Both the position numbers and the translations under genes were made by a program. Source: Rhodobacter sp. NTK016B (lineage in GTDB: Bacteria > Pseudomonadota > Alphaproteobacteria > Rhodobacterales > Rhodobacteraceae). Taken from it: a stretch of 64,000 nucleotides of DNA. A model generated the notes under the pieces. That model saw nothing but the letters and a program-made list of their open reading frames with translations. It had not been told where the DNA came from and did no database searches. Of this stretch, positions 15,901 through 22,054 are shown one piece after another (within the stretch, counting starts at the first letter, position 1; each line of letters starts with the position of its first letter). Location: the NCBI RefSeq assembly GCF_017303295.1, contig NZ_JAFKOK010000006.1:186001-250000 (forward strand), in the 5' to 3' direction.

Positions 15901-16439
15901 GCCTCGTGCCGGCGCTGATAAAGCCCCGAGATGCCGGCGGCCTCTTCGAGGATCCGCCGGCGCGCCTTGGGCTTGGCGTTGATGAGTTCCGAAATCTGTC
16001 CCTGCCGCACCAGCGCGGGCGAATGCGCCCCGGTCGAGGCATCGGCGAACAGCATCTGCACGTCGCGCGCGCGCACATCCTTGCCGTTGACCTTGTAGGC
16101 CGACCCCGCGTCGCGGGTGATGCGCCGCGTCACGTCCAGCGCGTCGCTGTCGTTGAAGCCTGCGGGCGCCAGCCGGTCGGAATTGTCGAGGCTGAGCGCC
16201 ACTTCGGCAAAGGCCCGCGCGCTGCGCGACTTGGTCCCGGCAAAGACCACGTCTTCCATCCCCGAACCGCGCATCGCCGTGGGCCGGTTTTCCCCCATGA
16301 CCCAGCGCAGGGCCTCGAGAAGGTTCGACTTGCCGCAGCCATTCGGCCCGACAACGCCGGTCAGCCCTTCGCGGATCACCAGTTCGGTGGGATCCACGAA
16401 GCTCTTGAACCCGTTCAGGCGCAGGCGGGTGAAATGCAA
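12990..16439 (-). CDS. smc: Chromosome segregation ATPase SMC
   Basis: A 1149-residue SMC protein that organises and compacts newly replicated chromosomes with ScpA and ScpB. The Walker A motif GPNGCGKS is at residues 31-38. Two very long Ala/Glu/Arg coiled coils flank a hinge at about 490-620, and the C-terminal head has LSGGEQTLTALALIF and the Walker B segment ICVLDEVDAPLDDAN. Length and domain order are normal. The start at 16439 gives the canonical MHFTRLRLNGFKSF. It is a single-gene unit; no scpAB is adjacent. Confidence 0.97.
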   Translation of the reverse strand: MHFTRLRLNGFKSFVDPTELVIREGLTGVVGPNGCGKSNLLEALRWVMGENRPTAMRGSGMEDVVFAGTKSRSARAFAEVALSLDNSDRLAPAGFNDSDALDVTRRITRDAGSAYKVNGKDVRARDVQMLFADASTGAHSPALVRQGQISELINAKPKARRRILEEAAGISGLYQRRHEAELRLNATETNLERVGDTVDQLAQQLTVLNRQAKQAARYREIGTSLRKNEGMILYKRWREAAQARAEVQSALAEAVTQAAAAERAAREARAEREGREDALPPLREEESIAGAILQRLHVQRDTLSDQENRAREAVQTLMARIEQLRLDAQREAGLAADADESIERLQWEEEQLARASEGYDEKLAEAVEAAHEASDVLADVEAHLTEATEDVARLSARHQSLTRQAADARAEGDKASAGAQRAADEAAQAETNLEAAEAEQDAAREALEAAQDMLDAAEEALADAEAARAEAQAAEVEARAARAGAEGEVSALSAELTALQRLIDRDKDQAGGILDKLRVAPGFEHALGAALGDDLRAAPAEAGSGWRALPGYDDTAPLPAGVDPLAAKVTAPAELARRLSQIGLTDAARAEALHADLRPGQRLVTIEGDLWRWDGLMQRGEDAPSAAAIRLTQRNRLDALRAELDEAEERQDNARETHEELQSELAQRTEADRMARDARRAAEQRLTEATRAQSRAEAAASLAQSKRESAGLTLERMQAEAEDAQSRRAEAEEALSELEDIDAARGALETIRTRVEAARVAMLSRRAAQEEIRREGAARRTRSQEVARDIQSWTARKTNAAERIADLERRADDAQDELSEANAAPEEILARREELSEAIAEAEERRTAAVEALLSAESALRAAQETERTTERAAGESREARARAEARVDAAGEAVTLAANRIADELDATPQGLLNQLGIASDDIPDSTTLETEIARLRRARDALGAVNLRAEEDARQVEEEHGTLVTEKADLEAAVAKLRGGIAALNREGRERLLAAFDQVHANFATLFTHLFNGGEARLVLVESDDPLEAGLEILCQPPGKKLASLSLLSGGEQTLTALALIFGVFLANPAPICVLDEVDAPLDDANVVRFCELLDEMTRRTETRFLIITHNALTMARMDRLFGVTMAEQGVSQLVSVNLKDAESLVA

Positions 16440-16604
16440 GGGGTGAAGTCCTGTCTCTGCTCTGTCTATCCAGTCTTTGCACAGCCTTACCGAGTGTCAA
16501 GAAACCCTGCCGGATCTTGCTGAGGTTGCACGGATATCCACAAGATGTTGGGGCATTGTCGCCACACATCGAGCATTCTAGGGTGTGGGGAAAAGAGGTC
16601 CCGG

Positions 16605-17057
16605 ATGGCTGTCACGATTTCCCCCGATACCCCGCGCGATCCGGCGGTGGCCGCGCTATTGCAGGCCTCGCATGCCTATCTGCAAAGCCTCTACGACCCC
16701 GAGGACAACCATTTCCTGTCCATCGATGCGCTGTGCATGCCCGATATCCGCTTTTTCACCGCGCGCCTTGACGGCAAGCCGGTCGGCACCGCCGCGCTGG
16801 CGCTGAGGTCCGGCTATGGCGAGATCAAGTCGATGTATGTGGACCCCGACGCGCGCGGCCATGGCGCCGCCAAGGCATTGATGGCCCGGCTGATCGACGA
16901 AGGCCGCGCGCTGGGCCTGCCCGCGCTCAAGCTGGAAACCGGTCCGCGCAATACCGAGGCGATGGGGCTTTATGCCCGCCATGGCTTTGTCGTCTGTGGC
17001 CCGTTCGGCGATTACCCCGAAAGCCCGGCGTCGGTCTTCATGGCGCGCAGGCTGTGA
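16605..17057 (+). CDS. GNAT-family N-acetyltransferase
   Basis: A 150-residue acetyltransferase with the GNAT acetyl-CoA-binding segment at KSMYVDPDARGHGAAKALMARLI (motif A, R/Q-x-x-G-x-G/A). The C-terminal strand (KLETGPRNTEAMGLYARHGF) is also typical. The start at 16605 follows AAAGAGG; upstream frame extension has no similarity. The last codons overlap the GTG start of the second GNAT gene, so the two form an operon. The acceptor substrate cannot be predicted. Confidence 0.85.
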   Translation: MAVTISPDTPRDPAVAALLQASHAYLQSLYDPEDNHFLSIDALCMPDIRFFTARLDGKPVGTAALALRSGYGEIKSMYVDPDARGHGAAKALMARLIDEGRALGLPALKLETGPRNTEAMGLYARHGFVVCGPFGDYPESPASVFMARRL

Positions 17058-17518
17058 CGCCGGTCCCGCGCCGGGTGTCCCCGGATGAGGACATGAAACC
17101 GGTCCACGCGCTGCTGACGCAGGCTTTCGCCTATATGGACGCGGTGATCGACCCGCCCTCGTCGCTGGGCCGGATGACCATCGCCGACCTTGCGGCCGAG
17201 GCCCGCGCGCAAGAGCTCTGGGTTCTGGACCCCGGCCCCGTCGCCTGCATGATCCTGACGGACAAGGGCGATACGCTGTATCTGGGCAAGCTGGCCGTGG
17301 CGGCGTCGCATCGCGGGCAGGGGCTGGCGCGGGTCATGGTCGATCACGCCGTGGCGCGCGCCCGGGCGCTGAGCCGCCCCTCGGTCACGCTGCAGACGCG
17401 GGTGGAGCTGACGGCGAATCAGGCGGCGTTTCAGGCGATGGGCTTTGCTGAGATCGGGCGCACTGCGCATAAGGGTTACGACAGACCGACCTCGATCACC
17501 TATCGCCGGTTTCTCTGA
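17054..17518 (+). CDS. GNAT-family N-acetyltransferase (second of a pair)
   Basis: A 154-residue GNAT enzyme. Motif A is visible as GKLAVAASHRGQGLARVMVDHAV, and motif B as the ELTANQAAFQAMGFAEIGRT segment. It starts with GTG at 17054, overlapping the previous stop by four bases. The two neighbours share the fold but little sequence, so they are not a recent duplication. The C-terminal TSITYRRFL resembles acetyltransferases annotated as acting on small molecules or peptides. The substrate is unknown. Confidence 0.83.
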   Translation: MTPVPRRVSPDEDMKPVHALLTQAFAYMDAVIDPPSSLGRMTIADLAAEARAQELWVLDPGPVACMILTDKGDTLYLGKLAVAASHRGQGLARVMVDHAVARARALSRPSVTLQTRVELTANQAAFQAMGFAEIGRTAHKGYDRPTSITYRRFL

Positions 17519-17560
17519 TCCGCGCATCGAACCGTTGCACCTGCGACAATCAGGCCCTTC

Positions 17561-17605
17561 ACATTCCAAAAACGGAATGTTAGATGCATTCCGTAAAGTG
17601 AATGT
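17561..17605 (+). promoter_or_regulatory. Two tandem ATTC-N8-GAAT palindromes (SqrR/BigR-type operator candidates)
   Basis: Site 1 (17561-17580) is a perfect palindrome with seven-base arms, ACATTCC-N6-GGAATGT. Site 2 (17586-17605) is CATTC-N8-GAATG. Both contain ATTC-N8-GAAT, the pattern reported for the sulfide/persulfide-responsive repressor SqrR of Rhodobacter. The centres are 25 bp apart and the second site ends 13 bases before the start codon at 17619, so a bound repressor would block transcription or clearance. The downstream genes are also sulfur-family candidates. The motif match is seen directly; the identity of the regulator is inferred. Confidence 0.65.
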
Positions 17606-17618
17606 ATGGAGCCGACAG

Positions 17619-18824
17619 ATGACCCCTTCCCGCCCCTCCGACACCTATTCACCGATGTATTTCCTGTCCTCGCTGGGCGCGGGCGGATTGTCGGTGACCT
17701 TTTTCATGTGGCTGATGTTCTGGGTGCCGCATCCCGGAAAGACCGTGCCCGTCTTCGAAGACATCATGGCCGCGTTCCAGTCCGGCGACACGCTGATGCA
17801 GGCGATGATCGTGGGCGCTTGGGCCGGCATCGCGCTGTTCGTCTTCCTCAACCTGAAATCGCTGGTCTGGAACCTGACGCATTTCCGCGCCTGGTCGCGG
17901 ACCGAGGCCTATCGCGCCTTCCTGAAAACCAACGCGCAGAGCCAGCTCATGGCGATGCCGCTGGCGCTGGCCATGTCCGTCAACGGGCTGTTCATCGCGG
18001 GGCTCGTCTTCGTTCCGGGCCTGTGGAACGCAGTCGAATACCTGTTCCCGCTGGCGCTTGTGGCTTTCGCGGGGATCGCGATCCACGCGTTCCGCACCTA
18101 TGGCCACTTCATCGCCCGCATCAAGGTCGAGGGCGGGTTCAACCATGCTGCCAATAACAGCTTCGGCCAGATCCTGCCCGCCTTCGCCTTCGCGATGATC
18201 GGCGTCGGCATGGCCGCTCCGGCGGCGATGAGCACCAATCCCGCCGTGGTCGGGCTGTCGATCTTTGCGTCGACCTTCTTGATGGTGACGGTGCTGCTGA
18301 TCGCCAGTGTGGCGCTGATCCTCGGGATCCGCTCGATGCTGGATCACGGCACGAATGCCGAAACCGCGCCGACGCTGATGATCCTGATCCCGCTGATGAC
18401 GATCCTCGGTATCCTGATGATGCGTCAGTCGCACGGTCTGGGCGTCCATTTCGAAGCCCATGCCGCCGCCGCCGAAACCTTCACCTTCCTCGCCCGCATG
18501 GTGTCGATCCAGCTTGTCTTCGCGCTGTTCGGCTGGCTGATCCTTGCCCGCCACAATTACGGCAAGCGCTTCATCTGGGGCCGTGAAACCTCGGTCATGA
18601 GCTATGCGCTGGTCTGCCCTGGTGTCGGTTTCGTGGTGCTGATGCAGTTCTTCATCCACAAGGGGCTGGTCGCCACCCATCTGGTCGACAAGTTCTCGCC
18701 GGCTTATTGGGGCTTCATCGCCATCGCCCTGATCGTGCAGGCCGCGATGATCGCGCTGGTCTTCACCCTGAACCGCCGCCATTTCGGCGCCCCGCGCGCT
18801 GTGGCCGCCGTTCCGGCCGAATAA
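17619..18824 (+). CDS. Polytopic membrane protein, probably TsoY-like
   Basis: A 401-residue integral membrane protein with about ten hydrophobic helices and no soluble domain. The N-terminal YSPMYFLSSLGAGGLSVTFF followed by WVPHPG, and the conserved histidines in NHAANNSFGQ and RQSHGLGVHFEAH, match my recollection of the TsoY family, linked to thiosulfate or sulfur oxidation. Some TsoY members contain selenocysteine; no in-frame TGA is seen here. The start at 17619 has GGAG seven bases upstream. It lies directly behind the two operator-like palindromes and ahead of a DsrE-like gene. The membrane topology is certain; the family name is moderately so. Confidence 0.6.
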   Translation: MTPSRPSDTYSPMYFLSSLGAGGLSVTFFMWLMFWVPHPGKTVPVFEDIMAAFQSGDTLMQAMIVGAWAGIALFVFLNLKSLVWNLTHFRAWSRTEAYRAFLKTNAQSQLMAMPLALAMSVNGLFIAGLVFVPGLWNAVEYLFPLALVAFAGIAIHAFRTYGHFIARIKVEGGFNHAANNSFGQILPAFAFAMIGVGMAAPAAMSTNPAVVGLSIFASTFLMVTVLLIASVALILGIRSMLDHGTNAETAPTLMILIPLMTILGILMMRQSHGLGVHFEAHAAAAETFTFLARMVSIQLVFALFGWLILARHNYGKRFIWGRETSVMSYALVCPGVGFVVLMQFFIHKGLVATHLVDKFSPAYWGFIAIALIVQAAMIALVFTLNRRHFGAPRAVAAVPAE

Positions 18825-18851
18825 CCCCGTCCCTTGCGTAACGAGTATCGG

Positions 18852-18875
18852 CGGTCCCTTCGGGGGCCGTCTTTT
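18852..18875 (+). terminator. Rho-independent terminator
   Basis: A seven-base stem, CGGTCCC / GGGGCCG with one T-G pair and loop TTCG, is followed by TCTTTT. It lies 27 bases after the membrane-protein stop. It separates that gene from the DsrE-like gene, which would then need its own promoter or read-through. Confidence 0.7.
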
Positions 18876-18982
18876 CATTCGTACATGCATATGATTGCGT
18901 ATTGTGGCGAAGTGTCGCATGCTGCCCACGGGCCAAGGCCCCGCGCGTTTGGGAGGACGCGCGCCACCAAGGGAGGAACCGA

Positions 18983-19423
18983 ATGCTCAAGAGATCCCTG
19001 CGCGCCGCCGCGCTTGCCGTGCTGACCGCCCTCGCGCCGATGGCCGCGATGGCCGAGGCGAATCGCGTCGCCATTCATGTCGATGAAAACGACCCGGCGC
19101 GGATGAACATGGCGCTGAACAATGCTGCCAATATCATCAGCTATTACCACGATCAGGGCGAAGAGGTCGCGGTCGAGATCGTCACCTATGGCCCGGGCCT
19201 GCACATGCTGCGCGCCGATACCTCGCCCGTTGCCGACCGCATCGCGCAGATGTCGCTCGAATACGAGACGCTGGCTTTCTCGGCCTGTAACAACACGCTG
19301 CAGGGCATGACACGGCAGGCCGGGCATGAAGTCCCGCTGCTGTCCGAGGCTGAGGTCGTGCCGTCGGGCGCCGTCCATCTGATGGAACTGCAACAACAAG
19401 GCTGGGCCTATCTGCGCCCCTGA
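18983..19423 (+). CDS. Exported DsrE-like protein
   Basis: A 146-residue protein with a signal peptide (residues 1-24, cleavage after AAMA) and a DsrE/YchN-like alpha/beta domain (RVAIHVDENDPARMNMALNNAANI). A single cysteine, Cys102 in FSACNNTLQGM, sits where sulfur-carrier DsrE proteins hold their active cysteine. DsrE-family proteins pass sulfane sulfur between partners; periplasmic versions are found in sulfur-oxidising bacteria. The start at 18983 is supported by GGGAGG seven bases upstream. The position after the TsoY-like gene supports a sulfur role, which remains an inference. Confidence 0.75.
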   Translation: MLKRSLRAAALAVLTALAPMAAMAEANRVAIHVDENDPARMNMALNNAANIISYYHDQGEEVAVEIVTYGPGLHMLRADTSPVADRIAQMSLEYETLAFSACNNTLQGMTRQAGHEVPLLSEAEVVPSGAVHLMELQQQGWAYLRP

Positions 19424-19477
19424 CCCTTTGCGCCGGCGGCAGCCCGCGCTGCCGCTGGCGCGATCCGGGCGCCGTGT

Positions 19478-20380
19478 TCAGGTGAACGACACCCCGTCGG
19501 CCCAATCAACCCCGCGCCGCAATTCGCCGGGCTCCATCACCCGTTTGCCCTCGCGCTGGGCGCGGTCGATGGCGACAGCGCCCACGCCGCAGGCCACGGT
19601 CATGTCGTGCAGCAGCGTGCCGGGGATGCCTGATTCGCTCACCGGCGCCGCGCCCAGCAGCTTCAACCGCCCGCCCGGCGTCTCGCACCATGCGCCCGGA
19701 AAGGGCGACAGGCCGCGGATCTTGCGCGCCACGGCCTCGGCGGGCTGGGTCCAGTCGATGCGCGCCTCGGCCTTGTCGATCTTGGCGGCATAGGTGACGC
19801 CGTCCTCGGGCTGCGGCTCGGGTGTCAGCCGGTCGATCTGCGCCAGCGCCGCGCCGATCAGCCGCGCGCCCATTGCTGACAGCCGGTCGTGCAGCACTTC
19901 GGTGGTTTCCGTGGCGCCGATGGGCGTCGTTTCCCGCAGCAGCACTGGCCCGGTATCGAGCCCCGCCTCCATCTGCATGATGCACACGCCCGTCTCGGCA
20001 TCGCCCGCCATGATTGCCCGGTGGATGGGCGCAGCCCCCCGCCATCGCGGCAGAAGCGAGGCGTGGATGTTCAGGCAGCCATGCTTGGGAGCATCCAGAA
20101 CCGGCTGCGGCAGGATCAGCCCATAGGCCACGACCACCGCGACATCGGCCCCGAGCGCGGCGAAAGCCGCCTGTTCGTTCGCGCCTTTCAGCGAGACCGG
20201 ATGGCGTACCTCCAGCCCCAGTTCCAGCGCGCGGGCATGGACCGGCGTGGGGCGCTCCTGCTTGCCGCGTCCGGCACGGCGGGGCGGCTGGCAATAGACG
20301 CAGATCACCTCGTGCTCGGCGTGAAGCGCCTCCAGCACCGGCACCGAGAAATCCGGGGTTCCCATGAAGATGACGCGCAT
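19478..20380 (-). CDS. fmt: Methionyl-tRNA formyltransferase
   Basis: A 300-residue enzyme that formylates initiator Met-tRNA. The N-terminal Rossmann domain begins [19 protein letters not shown]. The formyl-donor site is clear in [21 protein letters not shown], with the catalytic Asn and His, and in GLDTGPVLL with its Asp. A C-terminal OB-like tRNA-binding domain follows. Downstream of three deformylase-family genes on the same strand, it completes the classic formylation/deformylation pair. Gap to the preceding gene is 89 bases. Confidence 0.96.
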
Positions 20381-20469
20381 CCGATAGCTCCTGACCTGCC
20401 TGTGGGCCGGAATGATCCGGCGCGGGGTTCAGCTACACAAGGACCGGCGGTCGGTGCAACAGGGCTGGG

Positions 20470-20964
20470 TCAGCCTTGCGCCTTCTTTGCCTTGCGCAAC
20501 AGCATGTCGCGCTTCACCTTGCTGAGCCGGTCGAAATACATCCGCCCGTTCAGATGGTCGATCTGATGCTGGACCGAGGTCGCCCAGAGCCCGACGAAAT
20601 CGCGCTCCTCAATCTCGCCATCCGCGTTGAGAAAGCGCACCGTCACCGCACGAGGCCGCTCGATCCGGGCGTGGACGCCGGGCAGATTAGGGCTGGCCTC
20701 GTCATGCGCGCGCAGCTGGACCGAGGCATGCAGCACCTCGGGATTGGCCATCCGCACCGCCTGTCCGCGCGCTTCCGAGGCATCGACCACCGCAAGCCGC
20801 TTCATCACGCCGATCTGCACGGCGGCAAGGCCCACGCCGGGCATCGCTTCCATCGTGTCGATCATGTCGTCCCAGATCGCGCGGATCTCGTCGGTGATGG
20901 CCTCGACCGGCTCGGCCGGGCTGCGCAGGCGGCGGTCGGGCCATGGCAGGCAGGGTCGGATCAT
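20470..20964 (-). CDS. Peptide deformylase paralogue with degenerate active site (copy A)
   Basis: A 164-residue PDF-fold protein. Motif 1 is nearly normal (GVGLAAVQIG, residues 43-52). Motif 2, normally EGCLS with the metal-binding cysteine, is replaced by EASPNLP from residue 89, with no cysteine. Motif 3 reads QHQIDHLNG: both histidines are kept, but the catalytic glutamate is Gln134. True deformylase activity is therefore unlikely. It overlaps copy B by four bases and lies immediately upstream of fmt. It may have taken a binding or regulatory role, or be decaying. Confidence 0.85.
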   Translation of the reverse strand: MIRPCLPWPDRRLRSPAEPVEAITDEIRAIWDDMIDTMEAMPGVGLAAVQIGVMKRLAVVDASEARGQAVRMANPEVLHASVQLRAHDEASPNLPGVHARIERPRAVTVRFLNADGEIEERDFVGLWATSVQHQIDHLNGRMYFDRLSKVKRDMLLRKAKKAQG

Positions 20965-21467
20965 CGCATCCTCAGTTTCGATAGCTGCGCCTCGGCCGCG
21001 TCGCGGCTCACGGCATCCATGCGGTCTATCAACAGCCTTCCGTCCAGAAGGTCCAGCCCGTGCTGCGCCGCGATCCCGTCGAAATCGGACAACAGCTCAG
21101 TATGCTGCAAGCCGTCAAGATCGAGCCAGCGCAGCACGATCCAGTCGGGCCGTGCGATCCACGCGGTCAGTTCGGGGATGGACAGGCAATGCTCTTGATT
21201 GACGACCAGCGATTGCGCGCTTTCCATGATCGCCGGATTGACGCAGATCCTCGGATCCCGCCCCCGCCGCTGCCAGTCGTCGTCGATCACCAGAACCCGG
21301 CTTGTTCCACCGATCTGCGGCGCCGACAGCGAGCCGGCCCCACAGGCATACATCGTATCGAGAAGGTCACGCGCCAGAGAGCGGAGCGTATCGTCCACCT
21401 CGGTGATCGCGCGTGACACCCGGCCGAGCCGCGCGTCGGGATACTGGATAAGGGATTTCACGGGCAT
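20961..21467 (-). CDS. Peptide deformylase paralogue with degenerate active site (copy B)
   Basis: A 168-residue PDF-fold protein (MPVKSLIQYPDARL...). Motif 1 has drifted (AGSLSAPQIG). Motif 2 keeps the cysteine (EHCLSIP, Cys94). Motif 3 is QHGLDLLDG: the catalytic glutamate is Gly137 and the second metal histidine is Leu140. It cannot form the usual Cys-His-His metal site. I start it at ATG 21467, which aligns with the functional copy; a GTG at 21485 would add six residues. The losses differ from those in copy A, so the two degenerated independently. Confidence 0.85.
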   Translation of the reverse strand: MPVKSLIQYPDARLGRVSRAITEVDDTLRSLARDLLDTMYACGAGSLSAPQIGGTSRVLVIDDDWQRRGRDPRICVNPAIMESAQSLVVNQEHCLSIPELTAWIARPDWIVLRWLDLDGLQHTELLSDFDGIAAQHGLDLLDGRLLIDRMDAVSRDAAEAQLSKLRMR

Positions 21468-21532
21468 GTCCCAAGGCGCTATCACCGCCGGGCATGTCCG
21501 TCCATTGCGCAGATGTCACGCCCTGCGCCGGG

Positions 21533-22054
21533 TCAGCCCCGCGCGCGGTCGCGTTTCAGCTTTTCCATCTTGCGGGTGATCATCTGCCGTTTCATCGGCC
21601 CCAGATAATCGATGAACAGCTTGCCGTTCAGATGGTCCAGCTCGTGCTGCGCGCAGGTCGCCCACAGCTGATCGAATTCTTCCTCATGGGTCTTGCCGTC
21701 GAGCCCCAGCCACCGCATCCGCACCGAGGCCGGGCGCGACACTTCGGCGAATTGATCGGGAATCGACAGGCAGCCTTCTTCGTAGCTTTTACGCTCTTCC
21801 GAGGTCCATAGGATCTCGGGATTGATCAGTACCATCGGCTGCTGCGCCGTGTCCTCGTCCTTGACGCAATCCATCACGAACAGGCGCTGCATCACGCCGA
21901 TCTGCGGCGCGGCCAGACCGATGCCCGGCGCCTCGTACATGGTTTCCAGCATGTCCTCGGCCAGCTTGCCGATCTCGGGCGTGACGCTGTCGATCGGATC
22001 GCAGACCTTTTTCAGGCGGGAATCGGGGTGCAGAAGGATGGATCTCAGGCTCAT
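21533..22054 (-). CDS. def: Peptide deformylase (functional copy)
   Basis: A 173-residue metalloenzyme that removes the formyl group from nascent proteins. All three motifs are intact: GIGLAAPQIG (44-53), EGCLS with Cys95, and HELDH with His137, Glu138 and His141. It is the first gene of the def-def-like-def-like-fmt series on the minus strand. It is therefore the only copy in the cluster expected to be catalytically competent. Confidence 0.96.
   Translation of the reverse strand: MSLRSILLHPDSRLKKVCDPIDSVTPEIGKLAEDMLETMYEAPGIGLAAPQIGVMQRLFVMDCVKDEDTAQQPMVLINPEILWTSEERKSYEEGCLSIPDQFAEVSRPASVRMRWLGLDGKTHEEEFDQLWATCAQHELDHLNGKLFIDYLGPMKRQMITRKMEKLKRDRARG

Follow-up and report, generated by a model that had tools for sequence, protein, structure and literature searches.

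In the 64,000-nucleotide stretch of DNA that we analysed (the window, part of contig C65 in a genome of 4.84 Mb), two copies of the palindrome ATTC-N8-GAAT stand in tandem before tsoY, a gene for a membrane protein of the TsoY family (Table 1). The two boxes are real and recur at tsoY in many related bacteria. Since they match the operator of a sulfide switch, the repressor SqrR, and recur at this gene, tsoY is probably part of bacterial sulfide defence, of which it probably encodes a channel-like component. We put the probability of the statement as a whole, that SqrR regulates tsoY and that TsoY has a channel-type fold, at about 0.78.

The NCBI family library lists TsoY by name, as does a table in the available part of a selenoprotein review (PMC13188914). 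A literature search by the protein's name revealed no function for it, and among the titles listed that review alone clearly concerned the protein. Our results group tsoY with persulfide genes in a single alphaproteobacterial family and, within the same phylum, in two distant genomes. Together, the tie through the operator, the predicted channel fold and a Cys or Sec residue at the likely gate provide a testable hypothesis of sulfur-anion transport.

A model for tsoY induction and TsoY function

In the model that we propose, reduced SqrR dimers would occupy both boxes when sulfide is absent and keep tsoY off, with box 1 probably positioned between the two promoter hexamers (-35 and -10) and box 2 at about the start of transcription. 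In the SqrR of R. capsulatus, the two cysteines reportedly become joined by a polysulfide cross-link. In the same way, oxidation of sulfide to persulfide would lead to polysulfide cross-linking of the SqrR cysteines and release of the DNA, and tsoY would then be transcribed together with the other genes that have this operator (SQR-like, PDO-like, rhodanese, peroxiredoxin and trxC). The resulting protein, predicted to have a SLAC1/TehA-type membrane fold with Cys333 on TM9 near the gate, would most likely pass a sulfur anion of the persulfide pathway out of the cell. Sulfite, the expected product of the co-regulated PDO, is the first candidate, and we regard export of sulfite or a related sulfur oxyanion as possible rather than probable. 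TsoY could thus fill the exporter step after PDO, a step that the available text on Acinetobacter assigns to TauE, a putative sulfite exporter (PMC7315123).

Table 1. Features at the tsoY locus and operator sites at other genes
Feature	Position	Strand	Description
Putative tsoY promoter	17558-17586	+	TTCACA 17558-17563, 17 bp, TAGATG 17581-17586; read from the sequence
Operator box 1	17563-17578	.	ATTCCAAAAACGGAAT, exact ATTC-N8-GAAT; between putative -35 and -10 hexamers
Operator box 2	17588-17603	.	ATTCCGTAAAGTGAAT, exact ATTC-N8-GAAT; just 5′ of the ribosome-binding site
GGAG before the tsoY ATG	17608-17611		
tsoY	17619-18824	+	401 aa TsoY-family membrane protein; predicted SLAC1/TehA fold, invariant Cys333
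Terminator-like hairpin, then TTTT	18850-18871	+	9 bp stem, 7 G-C; between tsoY and the DsrE-like gene
Exported DsrE/DsrF-like protein	18983-19423	+	PF02635, 27.4 bits (cut-off 22.7); signal-peptide-like N-terminus by eye
DUF442-SQR fusion	site about 90 bp upstream		exact ATTC-N8-GAAT
Two PDO/Blh-like metallohydrolases	one box touches the annotated start		exact ATTC-N8-GAAT
Rhodanese	site about 60 bp upstream		exact ATTC-N8-GAAT
Exported rhodanese	promoter site		exact ATTC-N8-GAAT
Peroxiredoxin	promoter site		exact ATTC-N8-GAAT
trxC	promoter site		exact ATTC-N8-GAAT
G303, ATTAG-N6-CTAAT	two sites before tsoY		
G303, ATTAG-N6-CTAAT	pair before YeeE/YedE-type pair		24 bp apart
G303, ATTAG-N6-CTAAT	one site before PDO-like gene		gene 64% identical to the window genome's PDO-like L186
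G303, ATTAG-N6-CTAAT	one site before rhodanese-ChrB gene		
G303, ATTAG-N6-CTAAT	three sites elsewhere		

TsoY is predicted to adopt a SLAC1/TehA-type fold

TsoY scored 505.4 bits against the NCBIfam family NF047644 (cut-off 150) and 67.3 bits against the selenoprotein TsoY family NF047643, below its cut-off of 250. The available part of the selenoprotein review puts the Sec of the latter family probably at UxxV (PMC13188914), a place that Cys333-Pro-Gly-Val fits here; unlike selenoprotein TsoY, the protein of the window is thus a Cys form, with Cys333 in place of Sec and an invariant Cys-Pro in its membrane part. From its name alone, we would guess that the ArsR-type NCBIfam family TsoR (NF045707) belongs to the same selenoprotein systems. 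Pararhodobacter marinus has the most similar named TsoY (94% identity) among the best 80 of 580 relatives. One contig labelled Syntrophorhabdus sp. (L166) carries a Rhodobacteraceae-type tsoY (56% identity), which is probably a binning error.

A structure model predicted from the single sequence was poor (pLDDT 49) and was replaced by an alignment-based model. This model is nearly all membrane helix, lacks a separate domain and displays the ten-helix SLAC1/TehA channel fold. Foldseek alone matched TehA at E 1.5e-3 at best, and VIA-align matched the whole model to SLAC1/TehA anion channels over about 300 residues, leaving the fold clear. Sequence comparisons differed: a search of solved structures returned one chance-like match (E 0.51) and a profile search of them none, no Pfam family was matched at E 0.1 or better, PF03595 (SLAC1) included, and profile comparison of TsoY with SLAC1 proteins detected no kinship (probability 1.2%). 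The PF03595 match in the same genome belongs to a different gene. TsoY thus differs from the SLAC1/TehA (TDT) channels in showing neither a Pfam SLAC1 match nor detectable profile kinship. The channel reading rests on the predicted fold, and as a prediction a SLAC1/TehA channel-like fold is well supported. SLAC1/TehA channels carry a gating phenylalanine, Phe262, on TM9. In each of three windows, the register pairing it with Cys333 came second among about 310; within TM9 it was the best, so that, as judged by register, TsoY has a Cys at the best-matching position there.

The main competing explanation accepts SqrR control and holds that TsoY is a membrane enzyme that handles thiols or persulfides, or an importer, built on a SLAC1-like scaffold and using Cys or Sec chemistry. 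Sec usually marks redox or nucleophilic chemistry. The single invariant membrane Cys-Pro, probably Sec in selenoprotein TsoY according to the available part of the review (PMC13188914), may thus point to redox chemistry rather than plain conduction, and some genomes have this operator type also at YeeE/YedE-type transporters, which belong to an uptake class. Against an enzyme or importer stand the match of the whole predicted model to anion channels and the near absence of anything other than membrane helix, and we therefore consider this explanation a serious one that is probably wrong. Keeping the channel reading, one may combine it with the cysteine: in a SLAC1-fold channel whose gating Phe is replaced by a reactive Cys (Sec elsewhere), persulfide would both induce the gene through SqrR/BigR and act on the gate or be carried. 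We think this combined version unlikely; if true, TsoY would be a shared component of bacterial persulfide defence that has been overlooked.

The tsoY operator marks other persulfide genes

The whole genome contains 37 exact ATTC-N8-GAAT sites, nine of which lie at the promoters of eight genes: tsoY, with two sites, and seven others (Table 1). The gene calls around the 35 sites outside the tsoY promoter came from a simple script, a rough caller, and were inspected by eye for start codons. The Blh-like and SQR-like proteins are shorter, cut or fused and did not reach the respective equivalog cut-offs, and the SQR-like protein is incomplete at the end of its locus. That sulfide:quinone reductase-like protein (L009, G000:C6, near 3667, with ATTC-N8-GAAT upstream) is fused to a DUF442/TIGR01244 sulfur-transferase domain. 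The other 28 sites fall within genes, one of them within the peroxiredoxin gene itself, or near genes that have no evident role with persulfide.

These targets resemble the SqrR regulon of R. capsulatus. ATTC-N8-GAAT is the SqrR site deduced in that species, and the available text of the same report gives no such site in katG, one of the E. coli promoters bound by YgaV (PMC9774250). In the available parts of two further reports, peroxiredoxin, sqr, sulfurtransferase, rhodanese and disulfide reductase genes of R. capsulatus rise more than 10-fold with sulfide and with loss of sqrR, trxC responds to both, and a published trxC primer contains ATTCGCGTTGCGGAAT beside the start codon (PMC9995734, PMC10044876). 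Shared between the two organisms are thus the operator pattern, an orthologous repressor with both cysteines, and SQR, rhodanese, peroxiredoxin and TrxC as overlapping targets. Three features differ here: tsoY is not among the targets named in the available R. capsulatus texts, PDO-like genes also carry a box, and tandem boxes 23-26 bp apart surround one promoter.

The preliminary description of this DNA had proposed that SqrR controls tsoY and had named the absence of a SqrR/BigR homologue as grounds for rejecting the idea. We found such a homologue. The product of its gene (L018, on contig C11) shares 67.6% identity with R. capsulatus SqrR over 102 aa; both sensor cysteines align, and the putative DNA-reading helix is nearly unchanged. 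It scored 90.4 bits against the NCBIfam BigR equivalog NF040642, below the cut-off of 155, and is closer to SqrR. The genome thus has the operator, the orthologue with both cysteines, and the motif at seven other persulfide genes. Across a sample of 149 genomes, SqrR-like matches (E <= 0.001, counted irrespective of cysteine content) occurred in all 43 genomes with tsoY and in 93 of the 106 without.

We asked how well another ArsR-family repressor would account for the boxes, leaving tsoY without direct sulfide control. There are ten HTH_5 matches in the genome, among them a paralogue (L021, G000:C5, about 146827-146961, minus strand) about 54% identical to SqrR. It has nearly the same helix-turn-helix, keeping the helix core RQAAVSQQLARLR, and lacks a cysteine at either sensor position; L021 could thus rival SqrR for its operators while being insensitive to persulfide. 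However, the motif marks gene classes that in R. capsulatus respond to sulfide and to deletion of sqrR, and each of the 43 sampled tsoY genomes has a SqrR-like match, cysteine content disregarded. We therefore judge control by a different repressor improbable. It is mainly because the target gene classes match the known regulon that we name SqrR as the regulator, and with the conservation of the motif, the L018 orthologue and the sharing of the motif with persulfide genes, SqrR-type control of tsoY is well supported and, in our estimate, very likely.

The DsrE-like neighbour probably lies outside the tsoY transcription unit

The genes next to the boxes had been described as encoding a TsoY-like membrane protein and an exported DsrE-like protein, together proposed as a small candidate sulfur-handling system. 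Both family assignments held (NF047644, 505 bits, and PF02635), and the two genes are same-strand neighbours whose families each have ties to sulfur, which speaks for a two-gene unit. The proposed system did not fare as well. A terminator-like hairpin separates the genes; the segment 18822-18885 folds with -22.6 kcal/mol (z -2.43), and 16400-20500 contains six terminator-like sites, this hairpin included, compared with 2.7 in shuffled sequences. No ATTC-N8-GAAT site precedes the DsrE-like gene. Among the best 80 of 580 relatives, only three loci, from Pararhodobacter and a close MAG, have a DsrE-like gene near tsoY, with at least 1 kb of downstream sequence available at 74 and at least 2 kb at 65 of the 80 named loci, and none was found at the P. 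marinus locus, despite its 94% identical TsoY. Since a hairpin lies between the genes and linkage is rare, the two-gene unit is not supported and appears very improbable; the DsrE-like gene probably lies outside the tsoY transcription unit.

Upstream of tsoY are two genes for GNAT acetyltransferases and a divergent SMC gene (PF02463); the latter is the conserved neighbour, found at 56 of the 80 named loci (the best 80 of 580). When these same loci were searched for SqrR, PDO, SQR, rhodanese, Prx and YeeE/YedE genes, only one weak SQR match and two weak TrxC matches were recovered. As linkage is nearly absent, the tie of tsoY to persulfide genes runs through the operator and not through gene clusters. 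Elsewhere in the window (20470-22054, minus strand), three consecutive peptide deformylase genes (PF01327) adjoin a formyl transferase gene.

The boxes recur upstream of tsoY

Both palindromes that had been reported 25 bp apart before the tsoY start proved exact (start to start, with the ATG at 17619). Statistics confined to the window were uninformative and were set aside: 0.89 matches are expected, and two or more occurred in 21 of 100 shuffles, so that two matches are unremarkable. Across the genome, the twelve other spacings from N2 to N14 gave 338 sites (mean 28), and because the excess of the 37 N8 sites over them is only weak, counting sites across the genome is not enough to prove the motif. 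Apart from the pair at tsoY, nowhere in the genome do two boxes stand in tandem with a gap of 4-16 bp.

The significance of the boxes comes instead from comparison across tsoY loci, which derive from related sequences and are hence not independent events; their start codons were set by script. We counted the motif within 130 bp upstream of the tsoY domain, with a first-order Markov control. Our family sample comprised 149 genomes of 149 genera, 43 with tsoY, and loci were kept from 30 of these, one per genus, the window's own included. An exact site was present at 22 of the 30 loci and two or more at 11, compared with 0.19 loci with an exact site in the control (largest 2). A second set, of named loci, consisted of the best 80 of 580 relatives and so leans to close kin; 78 of these had at least 200 bases upstream. 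Here 49 of 78 had an exact site and 66 a site with at most one mismatch, with control values of 0.31 (largest 3) and 6.2 (largest 14), respectively, and the stretch 130-260 bp upstream had the motif at none of the 78. When all inverted repeats of 4-, 5- and 6-mers with spacers of 0-19 were scanned upstream of these 78 loci (from the best 80 of 580), ATTC-N8-GAAT ranked first with 49, followed by a runner-up with 22. The exact site is missing from eight of the 30 family-sample loci and 29 of the 78 named loci (best 80 of 580), and is present at three of ten phylum-sample loci (L088-L097). Chance matches in an AT-rich intergenic stretch, which the window shuffles and the small genome-wide excess (37 against a mean of 28) would allow, are practically negligible as an explanation given the recurrence in many genera and the first rank in an unbiased scan.

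The arrangement of the boxes is also conserved. Across 23 distinct tandem promoters, in which the box 1 position is present, the spacing is 23-26 bp. In 14 of the 23, the start of box 1 overlaps a TTTACA or TTCACA. All 23 have an A+T-rich TAT, TTA or ATA between the boxes, a weak count because AT-rich DNA is full of such triplets. This placement suggests that box 1 lies between the -35 and -10 elements and box 2 near the transcription start. The putative tsoY hexamers, TTCACA and TAGATG, only weakly resemble the sigma-70 consensus, and because a strict consensus scan of 16400-20500 called no promoter, their assignment is tentative. Five promoters of the Pararhodobacter group keep identical half-sites, with spacers that have changed over much of their length.

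Two other elements were seen upstream of tsoY. The heptamer TGCGACA, located 5′ of box 1 at 17542-17548, occurs in 37 of the 78 named upstream regions (from the best 80 of 580 relatives) and four of the 30 in the family sample, with none in the control stretches. At the 18 loci that also have an exact box, its distance to the box clusters at 21-22, 32-34, 41-43 and 57 bp, hinting at helical phasing of a second regulator. Perfect FNR-type boxes (TTGATN4ATCAA) are present in four of the 78 named regions (best 80 of 580) and two of the 30 (L037, L051, L158, L164, L169 and L171), which suggests that low oxygen may activate tsoY in some relatives.

Tandem boxes and a second operator type in other genomes

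Scanning the 149 genomes of different genera for tandem boxes (gap 4-16 bp) revealed 28 places in 22 genomes, and none with a reversed control. By coordinates, 14 of the 28 are at tsoY. Three precede YeeE/YedE-type sulfur transporters (L068, L070 and L072), with PF04143 matching both halves of two of these pairs and only the first half of L068. One place (L062, G005:C2) precedes a DUF1203 gene and another (G120:C7) was left outside the classification; neither is counted as support. A further place (L056, G120:C3) was rejected as a promoter pair, as it sits in an open frame. The remaining eight, found in five genomes (three in G099; loci L061, L065, L069, L071 and L074), were rejected, since they differ in build from SqrR-type pairs: they are pairs of a different, 16 bp inverted repeat joined by ATTTGCAAAT.

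In a phylum-wide sample, tsoY was present in 12 of 398 genomes, three of them outside the family of the window. Two of these three, G303 and G158, have another palindrome, ATTAG-N6-CTAAT, before tsoY. G303 contains nine such sites, compared with three for a reversed-pattern control, and shares the operator of tsoY with a YeeE/YedE-type pair, a PDO-like gene and a rhodanese gene (Table 1). G158 contains three, compared with one in the control: besides the site at tsoY, one precedes an ArsR-type gene that has rhodanese and thioredoxin genes behind it, and the third lies elsewhere. Thus, despite the different operator sequence, tsoY shares an operator with persulfide genes in two further lineages, which is independent support, in small numbers, for its place among them.

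The G303 arrangement can be compared with Acinetobacter baumannii, where BigR, a persulfide-sensing ArsR repressor, controls yeeE-yedE-pdo2 according to the available part of the report (PMC7315123). In G303, a YeeE/YedE-type pair and a PDO-like gene likewise have an operator type in common, with tsoY as an added member. We found no published BigR operator sequence with which to compare ATTAG-N6-CTAAT. BigR-like ArsR proteins that score below the equivalog cut-off are encoded in G303, G158 and the third genome, G334, and likewise in 14 control genomes. The ArsR protein of G303 has both cysteines; that of G158 has no Cys at the first SqrR position.

The tsoY gene of G334 has neither the ATTC-N8-GAAT nor the ATTAG-N6-CTAAT operator. 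It lies directly 3′ of a true SLAC1/TDT gene (PF03595, 191 bits; L095/L226) and adjoins a 1-Cys peroxiredoxin gene and an ORF resembling a multihaem cytochrome. In G303, the rhodanese behind ATTAG-N6-CTAAT (L235) is fused to a ChrB C-terminal domain.
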